NCBI GenBank assembly: GCA_947624415.1
Contig: CANQKH010000008.1
Location: forward strand, 1 to 57,492
DNA from: an uncultured Clostridia bacterium
Lineage (GTDB): Bacteria; Bacillota; Clostridia; Christensenellales; UBA1242
Reading direction: 5' to 3'
DNA length: 57,492 bases
This document shows, piece by piece, positions 3,931 through 48,814 of the stretch (positions are counted from its first letter, which is position 1; each line of letters begins with the position of its first letter). The translations under genes were made by a program, and so were the position numbers. The notes beneath the pieces were generated by a model that saw only the letters and a program-made list of their open reading frames with translations, had not been told where the DNA came from and did not search any database.

Positions 3931-4794
3931 TTATATAGGCTTTCGCTTGCCAAGTGTGGTCGTTTCCTTTTCCTTCTTATAATAGCGCTTGCAATAATAT
4001 AGGTTATTGCCATTTGTAGTTTTCATAGGGTTGATATATACACTTTCTTTTTCAAGCACATATTTATTTTCATCAAGATATTTCTTTATATTTTCGTATG
4101 TGTCAGTGCGTATCACGGGCTTTTTAATCCCTTTTGAGTGTCTATAAAGTTTTGAATTTGCAGGCAGTTCCATTTGCAACAATGCTTTTTCGTGCAAATG
4201 ACTATTATTGTCATTGACTTCTTTTGATAGGTGCGGGGTTAGATAATAATAGTATCCAAAGTTTGTTGGCGCACCCACACTCACATCGCCCTTTTTCCAC
4301 GCTTTTAATATGGTTTCCACAGGCACAAAGACCTTTCTTGTGGACTCATTAAAAAACAAAATTGCGTGTATGTGATAGCCTTGCAAGTCCCTGTAAAATT
4401 CATAAACATTTATAAACTCAATGGTTCCAAACTCAACTACTTTTCTACGCAGACGCTTCATAAAAGCGTTAAAATCGTCGTCGATTTGCTCTGTGTCAAG
4501 TGTTTTATGCTTGTATGTCAATGTCAAAAGTAAAATCTTGTCGAGATTTATTGAATTTTCTTTAATCAAATCTTGCAGTTGCAAATTGCTTTGAATAAGT
4601 TGTTTTAAGTTCTCACCACGCTTAAGCGATTTCTTTTCATCTACAATTTCACCTGTGCTTAATATTGCGTGTTTGCCATTTCTTAATCTTTTAATAGTTT
4701 GTTTTCTATTGCAAGTGTTGATATTAGATATCATTATCTCTTCTTTTACGACTTTAACCTTTACCATGTCGCAAGGTTTAATAATTGTTTCCAT
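3931..4794 (-). CDS. rep: HUH-type rolling-circle replication initiator (Rep-like)
   Basis: This 287-residue protein has the ordered motifs of rolling-circle initiators. Motif I is the strand ILLLTLTYKH (about 87-96). Motif II is GYHIHAILFF with a metal-binding H-I-H (141-143). Motif III is a Tyr-rich helix (about 180-191) that should hold the nicking Tyr and a Lys. Such proteins nick one strand at the origin and stay covalently bound to the 5' end. AAAGGAG precedes the ATG at 4794. It is the last gene before the tRNA-Arg scar. Many small integrative or mobilisable elements carry such a gene so they can replicate once excised. The motif III assignment is less certain than motif II. Confidence 0.75.
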   Translation of the reverse strand: METIIKPCDMVKVKVVKEEIMISNINTCNRKQTIKRLRNGKHAILSTGEIVDEKKSLKRGENLKQLIQSNLQLQDLIKENSINLDKILLLTLTYKHKTLDTEQIDDDFNAFMKRLRRKVVEFGTIEFINVYEFYRDLQGYHIHAILFFNESTRKVFVPVETILKAWKKGDVSVGAPTNFGYYYYLTPHLSKEVNDNNSHLHEKALLQMELPANSKLYRHSKGIKKPVIRTDTYENIKKYLDENKYVLEKESVYINPMKTTNGNNLYYCKRYYKKEKETTTLGKRKPI

Positions 4795-11351: not shown

Positions 11352-11927
11352 ATGAGTAAAACTATTGAAATGATTAAAAACTATATCCCAAACAATGAAC
11401 AAGAGGAAAAAGATAAGCAATTTTTTATAGATTGCGAAAAACAAAATCAAATTTTAACAAGAGATAATGAGTTGTGCCACCTTTCAAGTTCGGCAATTAT
11501 TTTAAATAAAAGCCATGATAAGGTTTTGTGTATATTTCACAATATTTATAATTCTTGGGCATGGGTTGGCGGTCATGCGGACGGAGATGACGATATGGAA
11601 TATGTTGCATTAAAGGAAGCAAAAGAAGAAACCTCTCTTCAAAATATTAAACCCCTGCTTGGACACCCCGTCTCAATTGAAAGTCTGCCCGTGCTTGGGC
11701 ACTTTAAACGAGGTAAATTTGTATCAGCCCATATACACCTTAACGTAACTTATCTTTTAGAGGCAGATGAAAATGAACCTACACACATAAAAAAAGATGA
11801 AAACAGTGGCGTTGCATGGTTGAAATTTGACGAATTGCTAGAAAAATCTACCGAACCTTATATGGTAAATGTTTATAAGAAGATTTTTGACCGCGTTCAA
11901 ATTCTTAAACAAGAAGGCGTTTTATAA
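11352..11927 (+). CDS. NUDIX hydrolase
   Basis: This 191-residue protein has a NUDIX fold with the box beginning at GGHADG (about residue 74) and ending KEAKEETSL. The box deviates from consensus: Lys replaces the usual Arg in REUXEE and Ser replaces the late Gly, but the metal-binding Glu pair is intact. An N-terminal extension of about 40 residues precedes the first strand. Such enzymes hydrolyse nucleoside diphosphates linked to another group, so the substrate cannot be read from sequence. GGAG precedes the ATG. It is the last gene of the DUF4832 operon and converges on the kinase/Ham1 fusion, which is also nucleotide-directed, through a shared terminator. Confidence 0.88.
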   Translation: MSKTIEMIKNYIPNNEQEEKDKQFFIDCEKQNQILTRDNELCHLSSSAIILNKSHDKVLCIFHNIYNSWAWVGGHADGDDDMEYVALKEAKEETSLQNIKPLLGHPVSIESLPVLGHFKRGKFVSAHIHLNVTYLLEADENEPTHIKKDENSGVAWLKFDELLEKSTEPYMVNVYKKIFDRVQILKQEGVL

Positions 11928-11972
11928 AACGCCTCGAAAATAAGGTCAAGTCAAAACTTGAAGTTATTGCAT

Positions 11973-12002
11973 AAAAAAAGATTGCCAATGCAATCTTTTT
12001 TT
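11973..12002. terminator. Bidirectional terminator between NUDIX and kinase/Ham1 genes
   Basis: A perfect 13-bp stem (AAAAAAAGATTGC and its complement) around a CAAT loop gives a T7 tract in both directions. It overlaps the stop codon of the minus-strand gene. Confidence 0.85.
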
Positions 12003-13110
12003 ATGCTAATATTTCCTTTATAAAAGCACGCTGTTCTTCTAGTGCACCACCTTCAGCCTTATTGGCTTCCTCAATCGACATTTCGCTCATATACTTATTA
12101 TATTCCTTGTTGAAATCTAGCGAACGAAGTGGCAACCCTTTTGATATAACTGGGCTTGGCTTTGCAACCATATATCTATAACTTTTAAAAAGTTTTTGAT
12201 GATAAACTCCCTCTCTATCACATATAACCAAAGCCACATTAAAATAACTATCACTGCTTCCACCAACATCTTCAAGTTTTTTAGAAAAAATTCTTATAGT
12301 TTCTTCGTCGCTTAATTCCCTTCCACCATACCTTCTTACAAAAACTCCTGGCTGTTCCTCTTTTGAAAACTTTTCTATTATCAATCCACTATCGTTTGAA
12401 ATTACAGGCAATCCTGTCGCTTTATGATATGCCTCCGCCTTAATTTGTGCATTTTCCAACTCAGTTTCGCCATTTTCCTCAACCTTTATATGTGGATTTA
12501 AGTCTAAAAGTGAACAATGAGGAATTTTTAACTCTTCAAGTATTTGTGCATAAATCGCAACCTTTCCTTGGTTTGTCGAAGCAACCAATATTTGGCTCTC
12601 CTCTTTTACCAACTTGCCATCTTGATATGTATTAATTTGATGAAATCCCTCTTTTAAATTAGGCTTTCCACTTTCCAAGCGGGCTTTGTAAATATTAAGA
12701 GACTTTCTTGGATTTTCTATAATATGGATGTTTGCATCGTTCTTCTCTCTTTGCAAAATTCTTTCAAGGCATTTATCATCATCAAGAAGGAGTAGTTCAC
12801 CCTGCAACTTATATCCAAATTCCTGTCCTATATTAATAATAGGTTGACGTGCTGAAGATGGAATATTCGTTGAATCAATAATAATATTTTTGCCCTCCTG
12901 TGCCAACTTGCGAGCCCTTTCATGTAAAACTCCAAATACAAGTGGATTATATTTAGAATCATATTTTTGAGGTATTTTCCCCTCTAAAACTAGTTCCTTT
13001 CTAATTTCATCGCTTGATAAAATTTCACCACCAAATTGCTCTTTTAATTTCTTTGCATGAGTGCTTTTTCCCACGCCAATCACGCCCATTAAAATAAATA
13101 TCGTTTTCAT
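12001..13110 (-). CDS. Fusion of a P-loop polynucleotide-kinase-like domain and a Ham1/RdgB-type NTP pyrophosphatase
   Basis: This 369-residue protein has two domains. Residues 1-160 are an AAA_33/zeta-like P-loop kinase: Walker A GVIGVGKST (9-17), SSDEIRKEL after the second strand, an IIIDSTN strand and a lid with Arg residues near 118-122. Residues 173-369 match the Ham1/RdgB house-cleaning pyrophosphatase: ILVASTNQGK (174-183), ENAQIKA (219-225), SNDSGL (238-243) and PGVFVRRYGG (254-263). RdgB enzymes cleave ITP, XTP and dITP to monophosphates. The usual C-terminal SHR motif appears altered (NKAEGGAL). No Shine-Dalgarno is present, and a consensus promoter ends six bases before the ATG. 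The domain joining looks genuine, as one uninterrupted frame. Confidence 0.85.
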   Translation of the reverse strand: MKTIFILMGVIGVGKSTHAKKLKEQFGGEILSSDEIRKELVLEGKIPQKYDSKYNPLVFGVLHERARKLAQEGKNIIIDSTNIPSSARQPIINIGQEFGYKLQGELLLLDDDKCLERILQREKNDANIHIIENPRKSLNIYKARLESGKPNLKEGFHQINTYQDGKLVKEESQILVASTNQGKVAIYAQILEELKIPHCSLLDLNPHIKVEENGETELENAQIKAEAYHKATGLPVISNDSGLIIEKFSKEEQPGVFVRRYGGRELSDEETIRIFSKKLEDVGGSSDSYFNVALVICDREGVYHQKLFKSYRYMVAKPSPVISKGLPLRSLDFNKEYNKYMSEMSIEEANKAEGGALEEQRAFIKEILA

Positions 13111-13116
13111 GGCAAT

Positions 13117-13145
13117 ATTATAACAAAATACAAATAAATTGTCAA
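13117..13145 (-). promoter_or_regulatory. Consensus promoter giving a predicted leaderless mRNA
   Basis: On the minus strand, TTGACA (13145-13140), a 17-base spacer and TATAAT (13122-13117). The -10 ends six bases before the ATG of the kinase/Ham1 gene, so the seventh base is the A of the start codon. No ribosome site fits in the gap. Confidence 0.75.
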
Positions 13146-13161
13146 AGAATTAAAATTAAAT

Positions 13162-13187
13162 AAAAAAAAGGATGGTTTATTCCATCC
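13162..13187 (-). terminator. Terminator of the SPFH/zinc-ribbon operon
   Basis: GGATGG-TTTATT-CCATCC (13170-13187) is followed on the minus strand by T8. It overlaps the last codons of the membrane zinc-ribbon gene. Confidence 0.75.
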
Positions 13188-13572
13188 CTTGTATTTCCTT
13201 TCCACAGTTTGGACAAACTTTATCGTTTTCTTCGAGTTCATGTCCACATTTATCGCAAAGTTTTACGTTTGCCATCCCCTTTGCACTGTTTCCGTCTTTT
13301 ACGCTTCCTTGGTCAACATTTATCATCCCACAACTAACTAAAAGCATACCTATACCTGTTCCGCCGAGACAAAGACCAATCAAAATCATAATTACTCCAA
13401 AAACAATTTTTAACGCAATCCCTGCCGCACTTTGTGCTTTACATCCAAAAACAACAAGAGTTATTCCACCTGCCAATATGCAAAGTCCAATTACAAGTAA
13501 AATAGTTGCAAATATTATAAGATGCCTTTTCTTCAACCTTGTTTCTTGATAAACATTTTTATTTATACTCAT
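13177..13572 (-). CDS. Membrane protein with C-terminal zinc ribbon
   Basis: This 131-residue protein starts with a short cytoplasmic segment and has two strongly hydrophobic helices (about 19-43 and 50-82) rich in Gly, Ile and Leu. A C-terminal zinc ribbon follows, CDKCG(x8)VCPNCG, with four Cys at about residues 105-123. It is the third gene of the operon, one base after the TFIIB-ribbon gene. Zinc ribbons of this kind usually mediate protein contacts rather than catalysis. Both termini are probably cytoplasmic. With its partners it may form a membrane-associated complex, but its own role is unknown. Confidence 0.7.
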   Translation of the reverse strand: MSINKNVYQETRLKKRHLIIFATILLVIGLCILAGGITLVVFGCKAQSAAGIALKIVFGVIMILIGLCLGGTGIGMLLVSCGMINVDQGSVKDGNSAKGMANVKLCDKCGHELEENDKVCPNCGKEIQGME

Positions 13573-13573
13573 T

Positions 13574-14632
13574 TTAACCTCCCAACATCATCGCTAATAC
13601 TATCGCCAGCGGTATCCCAACAACAAGCAAACCAATAAAAATTGAAAATAATGCAATTTTAAGTTTGGAAGTTGGAAAATTTCCACCAACATTCCCATTT
13701 TGACCATTCATAATATTTAAGTAATCTTTATCCTTAAATTTATAATTTATAAAGTATATAGGCACTAATAGATATGAAAATTTTTGATTTGTGTAAGTTG
13801 TGTTGACCTGTAATGAAACAACCCTAGTTTTTGCACCAGTATATTCTCCACTAATCATTGAATACAGTTTTTCATCCGCTATCGCCTGTGCCCTCTTTAA
13901 ACCATCATCAACACTTTGATTATAATAGCCGACTGAATACCCCTTCAAATAATCGGGATTAAATTCACGCACTTCTTTGTAATTATAAGGCAATATCATG
14001 TTTATTTGTGTCTGGGAAATCATATCGCTTGATTCAACTATTAAATCTCCAAAATCAAACATTTTATTCCCAGTAAATGGCACTCTCACAGTATATTCTT
14101 CTATATTCCCCTCACCATTTGTCCTTTTACGCGTTTCTTCCTGTATTCCTCTATAACGTGAAAAGGAGTGAAATGAATAGTCAAAAGATGATATATATGT
14201 AGCACCAAGTTCTAACTTTGGTAAATTTTTAACAAATTTTCGAGATATAAACATTTTATGCTTAACTCTTGATGAAAATTCTGCCTTTGCCTGCTCTTTT
14301 GTAATCCTAAAAGGAATTATTCCGTCCGGTTTTAATCCTGGCAATTCATCTGTTGGAATCAAAGATGAGGTGTTGCAATATTGACATTTTGTGGACATCT
14401 CATATCTATTTAAAACTATCTTCGCACCACAATTTGTGCATTGATATGAGCGACTTGTCCCTTCCCAGTCTTTGTATCCTTCATCATTTAAAGCATCTGT
14501 TACAAGTCTTTTGACAACAAAATTTCCGGCATTTATTGGAAAAATGTGTTGGCATTTTACACACTTTAAGGCATTATCGCTTGGACTAAACTCAACTTTT
14601 CCTCCACAAGTTGGGCAATTATTTATATTCAT
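13574..14632 (-). CDS. TFIIB-type zinc-ribbon protein (YdjG-like) with C-terminal TM segment
   Basis: This 352-residue protein has two N-terminal zinc ribbons (CPTCGG...CVKCQ and CTNCGA...CQYCN, residues 5-90). A large soluble beta-rich domain follows, and a single hydrophobic segment (about 325-348) ends the chain, as in a tail anchor. The layout resembles Bacillus YdjG, which sits in one operon with YdjI and a PspA homologue in membrane-stress contexts. I start it at the ATG at 14632, which overlaps the upstream stop as TAATG. The six-codon-longer frame would run into the previous gene. It probably acts with the SPFH protein encoded just upstream. Confidence 0.75.
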   Translation of the reverse strand: MNINNCPTCGGKVEFSPSDNALKCVKCQHIFPINAGNFVVKRLVTDALNDEGYKDWEGTSRSYQCTNCGAKIVLNRYEMSTKCQYCNTSSLIPTDELPGLKPDGIIPFRITKEQAKAEFSSRVKHKMFISRKFVKNLPKLELGATYISSFDYSFHSFSRYRGIQEETRKRTNGEGNIEEYTVRVPFTGNKMFDFGDLIVESSDMISQTQINMILPYNYKEVREFNPDYLKGYSVGYYNQSVDDGLKRAQAIADEKLYSMISGEYTGAKTRVVSLQVNTTYTNQKFSYLLVPIYFINYKFKDKDYLNIMNGQNGNVGGNFPTSKLKIALFSIFIGLLVVGIPLAIVLAMMLGG

Positions 14633-15741
14633 TATAATTTTTCTCCACATTCAGGGCAAAATTTTGCATTACCTTTAATTGTTGCTCCACATTTTGGGCA
14701 TTTATTTTCAGTAACAATTTTCTCGCCACAATTTATACAATACTTTGCATTTGGTGATACTTCCTTGCCACACTTTGGGCATAAGGTAACTTGACTTGCA
14801 CCACATTCTGGACAAAATTTGGTTTCCTTGTCTATGCTTGCACCACACTTAACACACTTCTTCTTTGGAGTTTCATCTTTTACGCTTGCAATAGACTCCC
14901 CAAACATACGACCTATTGTCGTGCCTGCTCCAAGTCCTACACCTAACCCTGCAAAATTTCCACCGTTAGGATTTTGTGCCGCATCTCTCATCGCCTGAGC
15001 CGCTTGATACTGAGCATAAGAACCCATTTTATCACCAAGGATTCCAAGTTTGCTCCTCTCATCGAGAACTTTTTCTACTTCTTCTGGAAGAGATAAATTT
15101 TCCACAACAACTTGGCATAGTTTTAACCCCATCTTGCTGTAATCTTTATTGGCAACCTCTAAAATCTTGTCTGCAATTTCACGATAATTTGAAACAAGGT
15201 CAAGAGCAGAAACTCCACTTTCACCTATTGCATCGGAAATGTTCTGTATTAAAATTGAACGACATTGATTTGCAACATCTTCAACTTTATATAGCCCGTT
15301 TGTTCCAAAAACCTCTTTCATGAACAACTTTGCGTCATCAACTTTAAATGCAAAAGTTCCATAACCCCTTAGACGAATTGAACCAAAATCGGCATCTCTC
15401 ATCATTATTGGATTTTGTGTGCCCCATTTTTGTCCAATGAATTGTTTGGTGTTTACAAAATAAACTTCCGCCTTGATTCTAGAATTAAACCCTGTTGGCA
15501 ATGACAATAATTTTGTCAAAAAAGGTATGTTTTCAGTGTTCAATTTGTATGTTCCTGGTCCAAAAACATCGGCAATCTCTCCCTTATGAACAAATAGTGC
15601 AACCTGTGATTCCCTTACAACCAGTGTCGAACTGTTCATAATTTCTTCCCGTTTGTCAACTGGATGTCTGTATACAATAATATCCTTTGACTCATCTTTC
15701 CATTCAAGAACTGATAATAATTGCTTTGAAAATAATCCCAT
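14632..15741 (-). CDS. SPFH-domain protein with C-terminal zinc ribbons (YdjI-like)
   Basis: This 369-residue protein starts MGLFSKQLLSVLEWKDE, the usual opening of the YdjI/virion-core-like SPFH family. The SPFH/band-7 region covers about residues 20-255. A Gly/Ala linker (near 260-285) leads to three tandem zinc ribbons with CxxCG...CPECG patterns (about residues 295-369). YdjI-type proteins are linked with PspA-like membrane stress responses, where the SPFH part associates with membrane and the ribbons with partners. It is the first gene of a three-gene operon ending at the 13162 terminator. There is no TM segment of its own, so membrane binding would be peripheral. Function in this organism is inferred. 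Confidence 0.82.
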   Translation of the reverse strand: MGLFSKQLLSVLEWKDESKDIIVYRHPVDKREEIMNSSTLVVRESQVALFVHKGEIADVFGPGTYKLNTENIPFLTKLLSLPTGFNSRIKAEVYFVNTKQFIGQKWGTQNPIMMRDADFGSIRLRGYGTFAFKVDDAKLFMKEVFGTNGLYKVEDVANQCRSILIQNISDAIGESGVSALDLVSNYREIADKILEVANKDYSKMGLKLCQVVVENLSLPEEVEKVLDERSKLGILGDKMGSYAQYQAAQAMRDAAQNPNGGNFAGLGVGLGAGTTIGRMFGESIASVKDETPKKKCVKCGASIDKETKFCPECGASQVTLCPKCGKEVSPNAKYCINCGEKIVTENKCPKCGATIKGNAKFCPECGEKL

Positions 15742-45835: not shown

Positions 45836-48814
45836 TTATTCTTTTTCCTCATTTTCCCAAACTATATATTGTCGCCTTGAACTATCTCCATCCCAATTTC
45901 CACCAAATTCACGATAATGAAGTGCTCCTAATGGATTTATTTCAAATTTATCTTTCTTTGTTATTACAGACTCTAAATCATTATTGCCCATTCCAACTGT
46001 AATCTTTGAAATTGGCTTGTCTGGATTTTCTTGATTATATTTATTTGCAAATACCACTGTCGCAAGTTTAAATTTTTCATGTATTTTTAAAAGCATATCA
46101 CTGTCAACATAATGATTAACTTCAACGTTATTGAAAACTCCATAACCTTCTTCTCTGTTGACATAAAGCGTTGATTTTGCAATTATATTGCCATAATAAT
46201 CTTTTAAGACAAGATTTTGAACGTCTGGGTGAACAATGCTTGCATGCATTATTCCATACCCTGCACCCTCAAGATGAGCACAACAATCACAAAGTTTGCC
46301 CAAAATATAGTTTTTAGGATCACTCTTGTTTAGCCAGTCTGCAACTATTTCTGTATCAGACATCTCGGCAACCATTTTTGTTGTTTTTGAAGCTGAAAGT
46401 TTAATTTTTTCTGAATATTGTTTGATATAATCAAAAACATCTTGATCTTGAACAGGATTTTTTAATATATTATCAGGAATATTTAATTTTTGTTTCTCCT
46501 CATATATTTGAACTGCTTTTTCAAATGTTGATTGTTGTGCGAAATATGGTGCAATAGTTCTTGCTATATTTGCAGTTTTACTTGTTACCCCTTTGAAAGT
46601 TTCATTTCTAAAAAATTCAACAAATTTTTTTACCGTTGGTTTTAGTTGTCTTTGTCCACCACGATTTGAAGTGTTTGTCTTCTGCACCTCTTCAAATCTG
46701 TTATAACATGAAGCAATAAAACCTGGGTTGTTTGCCTCTTCTTGAAGCATCTCTTCAAAATTATTTGGATCTAATAAAAATTTTGTAAATTCAGGCTTAT
46801 TACCATCCAATGGCATATTTTCTAACTTTTCAACCAAATTGCCAATATTTCTAGCATTGCTTGCAAGTTGTTCTCTAAAAAATTCCCCCGTTCGTTGTGC
46901 ATAGTCAACTGTAACTTCTATTTCCTTTCCGCTTTTTGATATTCGCTTTTCCTTTTGTGGCTGATCAAATCCACCTAAATTATAGTAAAGCGTGCAAAAT
47001 TGTTTGCTCATTTGACCAATTGGAGTTCTCATTGGATTGTTTGTGTCAATCATTTTTAAAACAGACATTTTTTTATAAAATGTGAGATTTGCATTCTTCA
47101 TAAAATCCTCAAACTCTTCAGTTGGTAATTTTTGTTGCAAATTTTCAAACATATACACATAAAAATCTCTAATTTCCGCTTTTTTAATATCGCTCTCCAA
47201 TTTGTTTCTTTTGTCCCAAAGCAATTTTATACACAAAGGGTCTACTCCTTTAAAGTCTCTTATGCTTACCCAATCTTCACAACCTTGCAACTGTGAATTT
47301 TTGTTTGAAAAAATAAAGCCATCTTTATCCTTTTGTATGCTTTCAAAATCTTCATTTACTATGTCTAATGTTCCTTTTAAATGACATTTTTCAGCTACTT
47401 TAATATAATCAAGGTTCTCACAATCAATTAAATTCATTAAATCAAAAGAAGGTGTTTGGATTTCAATACCTTTCAGTCTTGAACAATTCGCAAACGTTTG
47501 ATTGCCTTCTAAAATTATATCTTGAGGCAATGAAACATATTCCAGCCCTGTGTTTGTAAACGATGCATTCCCAAGTGTGTGAATTCCGCCTGAAAAATCA
47601 AAACTCTTTAAACTTTCGCAATTTCTAAAGCACCACAGGCCTAATTTTTCGCATACAGGAGGTATTTTCGCATCTCTAAGATTGACACAATTTTGAAATG
47701 TTCCAAAAGGCAGTTCTTTAAGTTGGCCTTGACTTATATCTGCACTTTTCAATTTATAGCAGTCATGAAAAGCACAATCCTCGATATTTTTTATTTTCGA
47801 TAATTTTACAGATTGAATATTGACACAATCCTCAAATGCATATTTCCCTATTGATTCAACATTTTCAGCAAAACTTACGTCTTTTAACGATTTACAGCGG
47901 GAAAAGCAACTTTTTTGAATATCTTTTAAACTTTCACCACCGGTTATTTTCCTTAATTTAAAGCACGCCGAAAAAGTTTCTTCAGGAAGTTCAGTTACAT
48001 TATTTAAATCTACCCTTCTTAATTTTTCGCAACCGCCAAATACCCTTTCCCCAAAATTTGATAACGAATTGGGAAGTTGGACTTCCATTAAATTCGAATT
48101 TGCAAACGCAAATTTCTCTATATTTTTAATACTATCCGAAAAATGAACTTTTCTTATAGGACTAAATGCAAAAGCATCCACACCAACATGCTTTACCCTG
48201 TCCAAACTAATTTCACCTCTTAATGAACATCTAAAAGCATCATCTTGAATGTCTTCTATATTTGATAAATCTATTGACGTTAAACTTGGACAACCCATGA
48301 AAGCACCAGTTTCTATTGTCGTCATTTCTTTTGGTAAGGTAACTTTCCGTAATGAATTGCACCCGATAAACATTTTTCTTGGAGTTGCTGGCAATTTCGC
48401 CTCAATATTTGCTTCAACCAATTTCCTGCAATCCATAAATATACCTTCCCCAGCCTTTTTTAACGATGCTGGCAATTTCACCTTTGTAATTAAAGTAGAT
48501 TTAAAAGCATATTCATCTATAGATTGTATATTTTCTGGCAAGTCTGCTTTTTTTAAATATTTACAATCTTCAAATGCTGACTTTCCAATAATTTTTAAAC
48601 TTTTTGGGAATTTCACCTTCTTTATTAAACTTGATTTAAAGGCAGCATCGCCAATTTCCTCAACACCTTCTTCCATTTCAACTTCATCAAGAATATATGT
48701 ATCAGAAAAATTACATGTTGAAGATATTTTCTTAACACTTGAAGGAATTACAATCTTCCCATTTACTATATCTGACTCATCTATACTAATTAAAACGCCG
48801 TCTTTTATTTCCAT
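45836..48814 (-). CDS. Giant BspA-type LRR protein with Cys-rich GNAT-like C-terminal domain
   Basis: This 992-residue protein has no signal peptide. Residues 1-470 hold about 18-20 BspA-type LRRs of about 23 residues (IGKSAFEDCKYLKKADLP, IEKFAFANSNLMEVQLP). Residues 500-830 are helical. The C-terminal ~150 residues contain LCDCCAHLEGAGYGIMHASI, then NLVLKDYYGNIIAKSTLYVN and GVFNNVEVNHYV. Paired strands after a Cys/His cluster suggest an acetyltransferase-like or metal domain I cannot assign. BspA LRRs usually bind proteins, so this may recognise a target and act on it. No ribosome site is present; TATAAT ends six bases before the ATG, predicting a leaderless mRNA. Function unknown. Confidence 0.75.
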   Translation of the reverse strand: MEIKDGVLISIDESDIVNGKIVIPSSVKKISSTCNFSDTYILDEVEMEEGVEEIGDAAFKSSLIKKVKFPKSLKIIGKSAFEDCKYLKKADLPENIQSIDEYAFKSTLITKVKLPASLKKAGEGIFMDCRKLVEANIEAKLPATPRKMFIGCNSLRKVTLPKEMTTIETGAFMGCPSLTSIDLSNIEDIQDDAFRCSLRGEISLDRVKHVGVDAFAFSPIRKVHFSDSIKNIEKFAFANSNLMEVQLPNSLSNFGERVFGGCEKLRRVDLNNVTELPEETFSACFKLRKITGGESLKDIQKSCFSRCKSLKDVSFAENVESIGKYAFEDCVNIQSVKLSKIKNIEDCAFHDCYKLKSADISQGQLKELPFGTFQNCVNLRDAKIPPVCEKLGLWCFRNCESLKSFDFSGGIHTLGNASFTNTGLEYVSLPQDIILEGNQTFANCSRLKGIEIQTPSFDLMNLIDCENLDYIKVAEKCHLKGTLDIVNEDFESIQKDKDGFIFSNKNSQLQGCEDWVSIRDFKGVDPLCIKLLWDKRNKLESDIKKAEIRDFYVYMFENLQQKLPTEEFEDFMKNANLTFYKKMSVLKMIDTNNPMRTPIGQMSKQFCTLYYNLGGFDQPQKEKRISKSGKEIEVTVDYAQRTGEFFREQLASNARNIGNLVEKLENMPLDGNKPEFTKFLLDPNNFEEMLQEEANNPGFIASCYNRFEEVQKTNTSNRGGQRQLKPTVKKFVEFFRNETFKGVTSKTANIARTIAPYFAQQSTFEKAVQIYEEKQKLNIPDNILKNPVQDQDVFDYIKQYSEKIKLSASKTTKMVAEMSDTEIVADWLNKSDPKNYILGKLCDCCAHLEGAGYGIMHASIVHPDVQNLVLKDYYGNIIAKSTLYVNREEGYGVFNNVEVNHYVDSDMLLKIHEKFKLATVVFANKYNQENPDKPISKITVGMGNNDLESVITKKDKFEINPLGALHYREFGGNWDGDSSRRQYIVWENEEKE

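Follow-up and report, generated by a model that had tools for sequence, protein, structure and literature searches.

In this work, a gene that joins a kinase domain to a divergent Ham1/ITPase-fold domain was studied in a stretch of 57,492 nucleotides from an uncultured Clostridia bacterium (contig CANQKH010000008.1 of assembly GCA_947624415.1); this whole stretch is called the window. The gene (12001–13110, minus strand) is one open reading frame for 369 amino acids, with an ATG start and no internal stop. Its kinase–Ham1 product is a new domain architecture on an uncharacterized, re-tooled branch of the ITPase family. We infer the reactions of the two halves and hypothesize, with a probability of about one half, that the fusion is a bifunctional enzyme of nucleotide metabolism (house-cleaning or salvage), in which a pyrophosphatase for nucleotides other than inosine and xanthosine triphosphate (ITP and XTP) is linked to a Pnkp-like kinase.

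The sequence-only reading had proposed such a fusion in a single intact frame, and both domains were indeed found well above their Pfam cut-offs, so neither is a spurious profile match. The Pnkp-type kinase domain (residues 5–139; 12694–13098, minus strand) matched AAA_33 with 80.2 bits (E 2.5e-22, cut-off 27). The divergent Ham1/ITPase-fold domain (residues 173–369; 12004–12594, minus strand) matched Ham1p_like over residues 174–304 with 71.2 bits (E 1.4e-19, cut-off 22.5). In a PDB sequence search, residues 4–136 resembled the Pnkp kinase domain (4gp6, 4jst) and residues 173–309 the ITPase/RdgB chains 3tqu, 4bnq, and 1k7k. Full-length homologues were found in 10 further genomes, and both domains stand in one frame in 11 of the 112 genomes of the genus, whose members are gut Clostridia with small genomes (G047, G486, G055, G492, G000, G038, G043, G004, G517, G026, and G049); therefore the fusion is neither an assembly error nor unique to one genome. 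No report of a kinase–Ham1 fusion was found among the titles and abstract starts listed by one open-access library, which misses most subscription papers.

The Ham1 half and its clade

When 84,980 species genomes were scanned for the Ham1 half, one pattern yielded 264 relatives, and the best 80 were kept. Among these best 80 of 264 are the genus itself, many Lachnospiraceae, and some Oscillospiraceae, besides isolated occurrences, for example in Enterococcus aquimarinus and in a Treponema metagenome-assembled genome. The Ham1 half belongs to a divergent, unnamed clade that occurs mainly in Clostridia. A quick maximum-likelihood tree built from 61 rows placed the variants in one clade of 47 rows with a Shimodaira–Hasegawa-like approximate likelihood ratio test (SH-aLRT) value of 99 and a stem of 1.13 changes per site, distinct from seven canonical rows and also from another Ham1 group within the genus that lacks the SHR motif. 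That second group (L066–L071, L073, and L074, in G043, G006, G044, G048, G047, G050, and G009) has YGWSWD-like or WSDLWY-like loops, and in G215 a gene of this type directly follows a variant gene. A profile search returned no solved structure of the variant subfamily; the best match was a canonical enzyme (78.5 bits). The window protein reached 64.1 of the 145.35 bits of NCBIfam model TIGR00042 and 87.7 of the 234 bits of PRK14822, and neither it nor five other variants reached the cut-off of any NCBIfam model.

The variants were aligned to E. coli RdgB in 83 rows, comprising 78 of the 80 kept loci, the window, L002, L017, L031, and L032; L116, which is cut short, and L149, which carries NUDIX at its N-terminus, were left out. 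RdgB residues N10, K13, E41, G43, K53, D69, and G71 are identical in all 83 rows. The catalytic aspartate D240, which had been named from the sequence alone, aligns with D69 (12391–12393, minus strand) and is thus Asp throughout. The R87 column holds Arg in 43 of the 83 rows, with Arg in column 86 or 87 in every row and in both columns in the window. In RdgB, K13, K53, and R87 are described as forming the triphosphate site (PMC3899018). The conserved phosphate and metal residues speak for an enzyme that cleaves a nucleoside triphosphate (NTP) to a nucleoside monophosphate (NMP) and pyrophosphate (PPi).

On the other hand, the motifs of base recognition are altered. At the position of GGFGYDP in E. 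coli RdgB, the window protein has KGLPLRS (residues 324–330; 12121–12141, minus strand), and the variant loop follows the pattern KGxP[LM]xS. G155 is replaced by Pro and Y156 by Leu, Met, or Ile in all 83 rows, whereas F154 is present in 65 of the 83 rows and D157 likewise in 65; the window has neither. The losses are concentrated in the genus clade of 15 rows, in which the loop Phe is kept once and the loop Asp never (13 Leu and 13 Arg, respectively), compared to 64 and 65 of the 68 rows outside it. SHR stands at its aligned place in 7/7 canonical rows and 0/83 variant rows; the string occurs anywhere in only one variant, as the last three residues of L145. The altered SHR-like end in the earlier description of this protein is therefore real: the window has E-G-L at that place, and the Ham1 Pfam match covers only profile positions 1–127 of 186. 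SHR has been tied to ITP binding and substrate specificity, and its change to SAA in human ITPase is reported, second-hand, to abolish ITP specificity or activity (PMC6640186). Human F149 and R178 are named among the residues for catalysis and substrate discrimination (PMC9016069), and F149 probably corresponds to the loop Phe. Judged from the alignment, the cutting site is mostly kept in the variant, the recognition site is changed throughout, and in the fused clade it is changed further. These changes argue against ITP and XTP as substrates, most clearly in the fused clade, and the fused form, with its loop Phe and Asp replaced as well, may be a further specialized branch.

The sequence-only reading had taken the second domain for an ITP/XTP-cleaving enzyme, and a related explanation is that the fusion is a diverged RdgB which replaces a lost rdgB and to which the kinase became attached by chance. 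We consider this quite unlikely. It is favored by the window's genome, in which the fusion is the only PF01725 match, by the 10 of 13 variant-carrying genomes of the genus that have no canonical RdgB, and by the high retention of the loop Phe and Asp outside the genus clade. However, SHR is missing and G155 and Y156 are replaced in every row, the effect reported for SAA in the human enzyme points the same way, and the variant remains below the RdgB/ITPase cut-offs of NCBIfam. Moreover, when 15 class genomes were hand-picked from 70 hits, 11, all outside the genus, carried the variant by score, and 10 of these 11 also have canonical RdgB. The class tally of 70/391 itself overstates the variant, since G337, G134, G109, and G121 are canonical by score; one order-level match (L282) carries SHR. 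Among 61 genomes of the genus, 3 have both genes, 10 the variant only, 16 the canonical gene only, and 32 neither (p 0.74); with the cut-off copy of G051 added, the counts are 4, 10, 15, and 32 (p 1.0). Loss of rdgB is thus common in the genus anyway, as shown by the 32 genomes with neither gene. A simple replacement of RdgB within the genus was rejected, since the two genes do not exclude each other.

The kinase half and the proposed reactions

A profile of 11 kinase rows was compared with the PDB. Pnkp kinase chains came first with up to 95.7 bits, followed by two fungal-type kinases (58.8 and 51.6 bits), Pnkp1 (45.9 bits), seryl-tRNA(Sec) kinase (45.6 bits), and T4 polynucleotide kinase (42.8 bits). 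The kinase half also matched phrog_505, "polynucleotide kinase", with E 1e-16. The P-loop GxxGxGKS/T, the DxxR motif, and the lid arginines of Pnkp-type kinases are all present. In the aligned fusions the P-loop (GVIGVGKST in the window, residues 9–17; 13060–13086, minus strand) keeps G9, G14, K15, and T17 in 10/10 and S16 in 9/10 (S16T once), which bears out the choice of G14 and K15 as core residues in the sequence-only reading. D34, R37, and R117 are likewise kept in 10/10, and R121 in 9/10 (R121L once). We take K15, D34, R37, R117, and R121 to be the counterparts, in the alignment, of Pnkp K21, D38, R41, R116, and R120. The first description as a zeta/AAA_33-type kinase therefore holds for AAA_33 only: Zeta_toxin scored 20.0 bits, under its Pfam cut-off of 22.3, the zeta-toxin reading was rejected, and the domain is Pnkp-like instead. 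A defense role, also suggested at that stage, was not borne out, as PADLOC gave just two weak, partial matches (E 0.004–0.005), and it was dropped.

By analogy with Pnkp, the sequence argues for a kinase that transfers a phosphoryl group from NTP to a 5′-hydroxyl, which may be that of a nucleoside, a nucleotide, or a nucleic-acid end. The Ham1 half would bind the triphosphate and Mg2+ much like RdgB and cut the α–β bond to give NMP and PPi, and its rebuilt base pocket would direct it to a nucleotide other than ITP or XTP. Should the kinase act on a nucleoside, the two halves would both yield a nucleoside 5′-monophosphate.

The partners of the variant elsewhere were examined in 10 long variant proteins (Pfam). 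Fused domains were NUDIX (L102, L149), HD (L144), HAD (L148), and GNAT (L151, L152); L101 carries a nucleoside 2-deoxyribosyltransferase-like domain under the Pfam cut-off, L135 reads into a sensor kinase, and the extensions of L114 and L136 had no match. Among adjacent genes on the same strand within 150 bp, NUDIX accounted for 5/75 and the main GNAT family for 9/75. In a comparison set of 75 genes lying 3.5 kb or more away, for which neither the direction nor the distance rule was shared and longer genes were required, NUDIX and GNAT fell outside the 25 listed families and thus number at most one each; 14 of 89 near and 44 of 119 far genes had been removed by hand before these scans. The near–far difference gave Fisher p 0.018 for GNAT and 0.21 for NUDIX, values that are optimistic because the rows are not independent (near-identical GNAT genes in L113/L119 and in L137/L140). 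The fusions with kinase, NUDIX, HD, HAD, and deoxyribosyltransferase-like domains are ready hypotheses on the substrate of the variant, and that substrate would reveal which damaged or modified nucleotide gut Clostridia must remove besides ITP and XTP. Annotation would probably name the variant a "non-canonical purine NTP pyrophosphatase" despite its changed recognition motifs.

The resemblance of the kinase to polynucleotide kinases (Pnkp, Pnkp1, T4 polynucleotide kinase, and phrog_505) would also suit a processing of nucleic-acid 5′ ends, in which the kinase phosphorylates 5′-hydroxyl ends and an opened Ham1 half, whose changed recognition motifs could admit a polynucleotide, strips PPi from 5′-triphosphate ends, so that both products are 5′-monophosphates. 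This is very improbable. No nucleic-acid-binding domain was detected in the protein by Pfam, and most Ham1 variants stand alone or have a small-molecule enzyme as fusion partner. No phosphatase, ligase, or Hen1 repair partner was found within the protein by Pfam, a result that for Hen1 and phosphatase genes does not extend to the rest of the genome, in which they were not searched. The RNA-ligase family PF09414 has a single match in the window's genome, and this is LigD of non-homologous end joining (NHEJ), beside Ku and the LigD primase; an RNA-repair reading was accordingly rejected. By their length, the other PF09414 matches are probably the same LigD (470–500 amino acids) and NAD ligase (650–670 amino acids), and those of about 306 amino acids would be another ligase. 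At L278 (2005–5165, G000:C1), the genes of Ku, LigD ligase, and LigD primase stand in a row as a bacterial NHEJ system in a small gut Clostridia genome. Still less probable is the full form of the idea, a single-chain normalizer of 5′ ends whose pocket was opened by the loss of SHR and the rebuilding of FGYDP and which feeds 5′-monophosphate ends to decay or repair; if true, it would to our knowledge be the first ITPase-fold enzyme that acts on polynucleotides.

It is also conceivable, if unlikely, that the Ham1 half no longer hydrolyzes nucleotides but catalyzes a different nucleotidyl or small-molecule reaction, and that the kinase phosphorylates a non-nucleotide substrate. HcgB is an ITPase-fold guanylyltransferase, and kinases of the AAA_33 type are functionally broad. 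The match of the kinase profile to seryl-tRNA(Sec) kinase, the GNAT neighbors and GNAT fusions of the variant, and a weak HcgB match (E 0.1) are consistent with such a shift. However, the HcgB match lies under the cut-off and straddles the domain boundary, K13, E41, K53, and D69 are kept in all rows of the variant alignment, and the NUDIX, HD, and HAD partners fit nucleotide metabolism.

Spread and history of the fusion

In six further genomes of the genus, a close Ham1 half occurs but no intact kinase (G483, G059, G032, G021, G033, and G056, the last truncated at a contig end); the copy in G051 is more distant and likewise truncated at a contig end, and G001 has a close kinase alone. No full-length fusion was found outside the genus when 391 genomes of the class, 347 of the order, and 398 of the phylum were sampled; these samples contain some members of the genus, and for most genomes just five candidates were scored, so that a weak fusion could be missed. 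In phage and plasmid collections no place covered 80% of the fusion protein, and a scan of viral contigs with the whole protein gave no relative; a mobile-element reading was rejected on these grounds. With the Ham1-variant profile, one viral contig was found to carry a standalone copy. Two records labelled "Bacteriophage sp." (MT837823.1 and MT838937.1) have ABC transporter, methyltransferase, and Ham1 genes and look like fragments of bacterial chromosomes.

The genus clade in the tree comprises 18 rows (SH-aLRT 98). G026 and G049, the fusions that diverged most, lie outside its 15-row group (91), and the standalone and kinase-less forms nest inside that group. This pattern is most simply read as a single ancient fusion after which the kinase decayed or was lost, an order of gain and loss that we infer. 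The conserved core would then be the Ham1 half, to which one genus added the kinase as an accessory that some of its members subsequently lost. In 45/45 pairs of 10 fusions, conservation was higher in the Ham1 half than in the kinase. The proteins of G059 and G032 (294 amino acids) have a short N-terminus without a P-loop and with ends resembling those of the kinase. The N-terminus of G059 matched the kinase profile with E 5e-4, from its two ends, and its first 70 residues alone with E 0.044, not far from the 0.064 that the best of 200 shuffles reached. The G483 homologue matched with E 3.9e-5, and Pfam detects Ham1 alone in it. A kinase remnant in these relatives is no more than probable, because the score of G059 lies near the shuffles and Pfam shows only Ham1 in G483.

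A somewhat doubtful but possible account is a neutral gene fusion in a reducing genome, in which the domains keep their old, unrelated functions; it is compatible with the best explanation of each half. The restriction of the fusion to one genus across all four samples, the later loss or decay of the kinase, and the variable gene surroundings all speak for it. On the other hand, one intact frame is kept in 11 species, the Ham1 domains of the 10 fusions compared being as little as 49% identical, and nonsynonymous divergence (dN) is far below synonymous divergence (dS) in the closest pairs. Between the window and G047, dN/dS was 0.15/1.06 for the kinase part, with Ham1 dS saturated; between G055 and G492 it was 0.12/1.00 for the kinase and 0.06/1.96 for Ham1. 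Purifying selection is thus shown in the closest pairs; many other dS values were saturated or not computable.

Several observations weigh against a bifunctional nucleotide enzyme. Some relatives retain the Ham1 half although their kinase has decayed or disappeared, so the two activities are not obligately coupled. A nucleoside kinase and an NTP pyrophosphatase do not form a sequential pathway, so the benefit of linking them is not evident. The triphosphate-site R87 column holds Arg in just over half of the variant rows, and because most rows keep F154 and D157, some purine-like recognition may remain in the wider subfamily. In the genus, the presence of canonical RdgB neither excludes the variant nor goes along with it. 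The partners also include GNAT proteins, which are not nucleotide enzymes, and a canonical Ham1 with a C-terminal GNAT (L052, in G019) means that partnering with GNAT is not limited to the variant subfamily. The greater interest lies in the Ham1-variant branch rather than in the genus-limited fusion.

Surroundings, expression signals, and known systems

A NUDIX gene (11352–11927, plus strand; Pfam NUDIX 40.2 bits) converges on the fusion gene, and a terminator-like hairpin with a 17-pair stem and a T run (11969–12006) lies between them. Homologues of this NUDIX gene adjoin the fusion in G047 and G517, and one (49% identity, NUDIX 52 bits) is directly upstream of a standalone variant in G302, of another family. 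On the other side of the fusion, an SPFH/zinc-ribbon gene and two zinc-ribbon genes stand in a row (13177–15741). Their homologues lie upstream of the fusion in G047, G517, G043, and G038; the surroundings of the remaining fusions examined differ, and these genes were rejected as partners. A rolling-circle-type replication protein (3931–4794; REP_ORF2-G2P, 43.5 bits) is possibly the remnant of a small mobile element.

A promoter-like TTGACA-17-TATAAT, matching at 12/12 positions, ends 6 nucleotides before the ATG of the fusion gene (13117–13145, minus strand; pattern match). A −10 hexamer with at least 5 of 6 matches, 6–8 nucleotides before the ATG and with no Shine–Dalgarno sequence by pattern, occurs in 9/11 fusion genes (among them loci L002, L184, L087–L089, L091, L093, and L096) and in G032 and G059. 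The −35 of G517 is poor (3 of 6), and G043 has a 15-nucleotide spacer. The outermost fusions, G049 and G026, have a Shine–Dalgarno sequence by pattern and no abutting promoter, and the same holds for both standalone genes and the single kinase gene examined. Among the 44 genes of the window, 29 have a Shine–Dalgarno sequence by a simple pattern and 3 look leaderless. From these signals the fusion mRNA is probably leaderless, and a promoter that abuts the start codon makes this gene a simple clostridial example of probable leaderless expression. A gene for a 992-residue BspA-type leucine-rich-repeat protein (45836–48814), with TATAAT 6 nucleotides before its ATG and no Shine–Dalgarno sequence, is a possible second leaderless gene.

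Among known systems, the Maf nucleotide pyrophosphatases are a precedent for re-tooled specificity (PMC3899018); the Pfam matches of the window protein include none to the Maf family. The RNase PH–RdgB fusions, two of which were seen here (L040 and L060), offer an earlier example of Ham1 with an enzyme domain on its N-terminal side, but the partner is another one and their Ham1 domain is canonical by score (213.6 and 221.4 bits). The kinase half has its nearest solved relative in the kinase domain of 4gp6 and 4jst, presumably the Pnkp of Clostridium thermocellum, with which it shares the P-loop, DxxR, and the lid arginines. By Pfam, however, the window protein has neither the phosphatase nor the ligase domain of Pnkp and carries a Ham1 domain instead. 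The RdgB/HAM1/ITPase family (PF01725, TIGR00042) is the fold family of the other half by profile and by the kept N10, K13, E41, K53, and D69. The variant differs from it in the SHR place, in the Pro and the Leu, Met, or Ile that replace G155 and Y156, in the variable R87, in its NCBIfam scores below the cut-offs, and in forming a separate clade.
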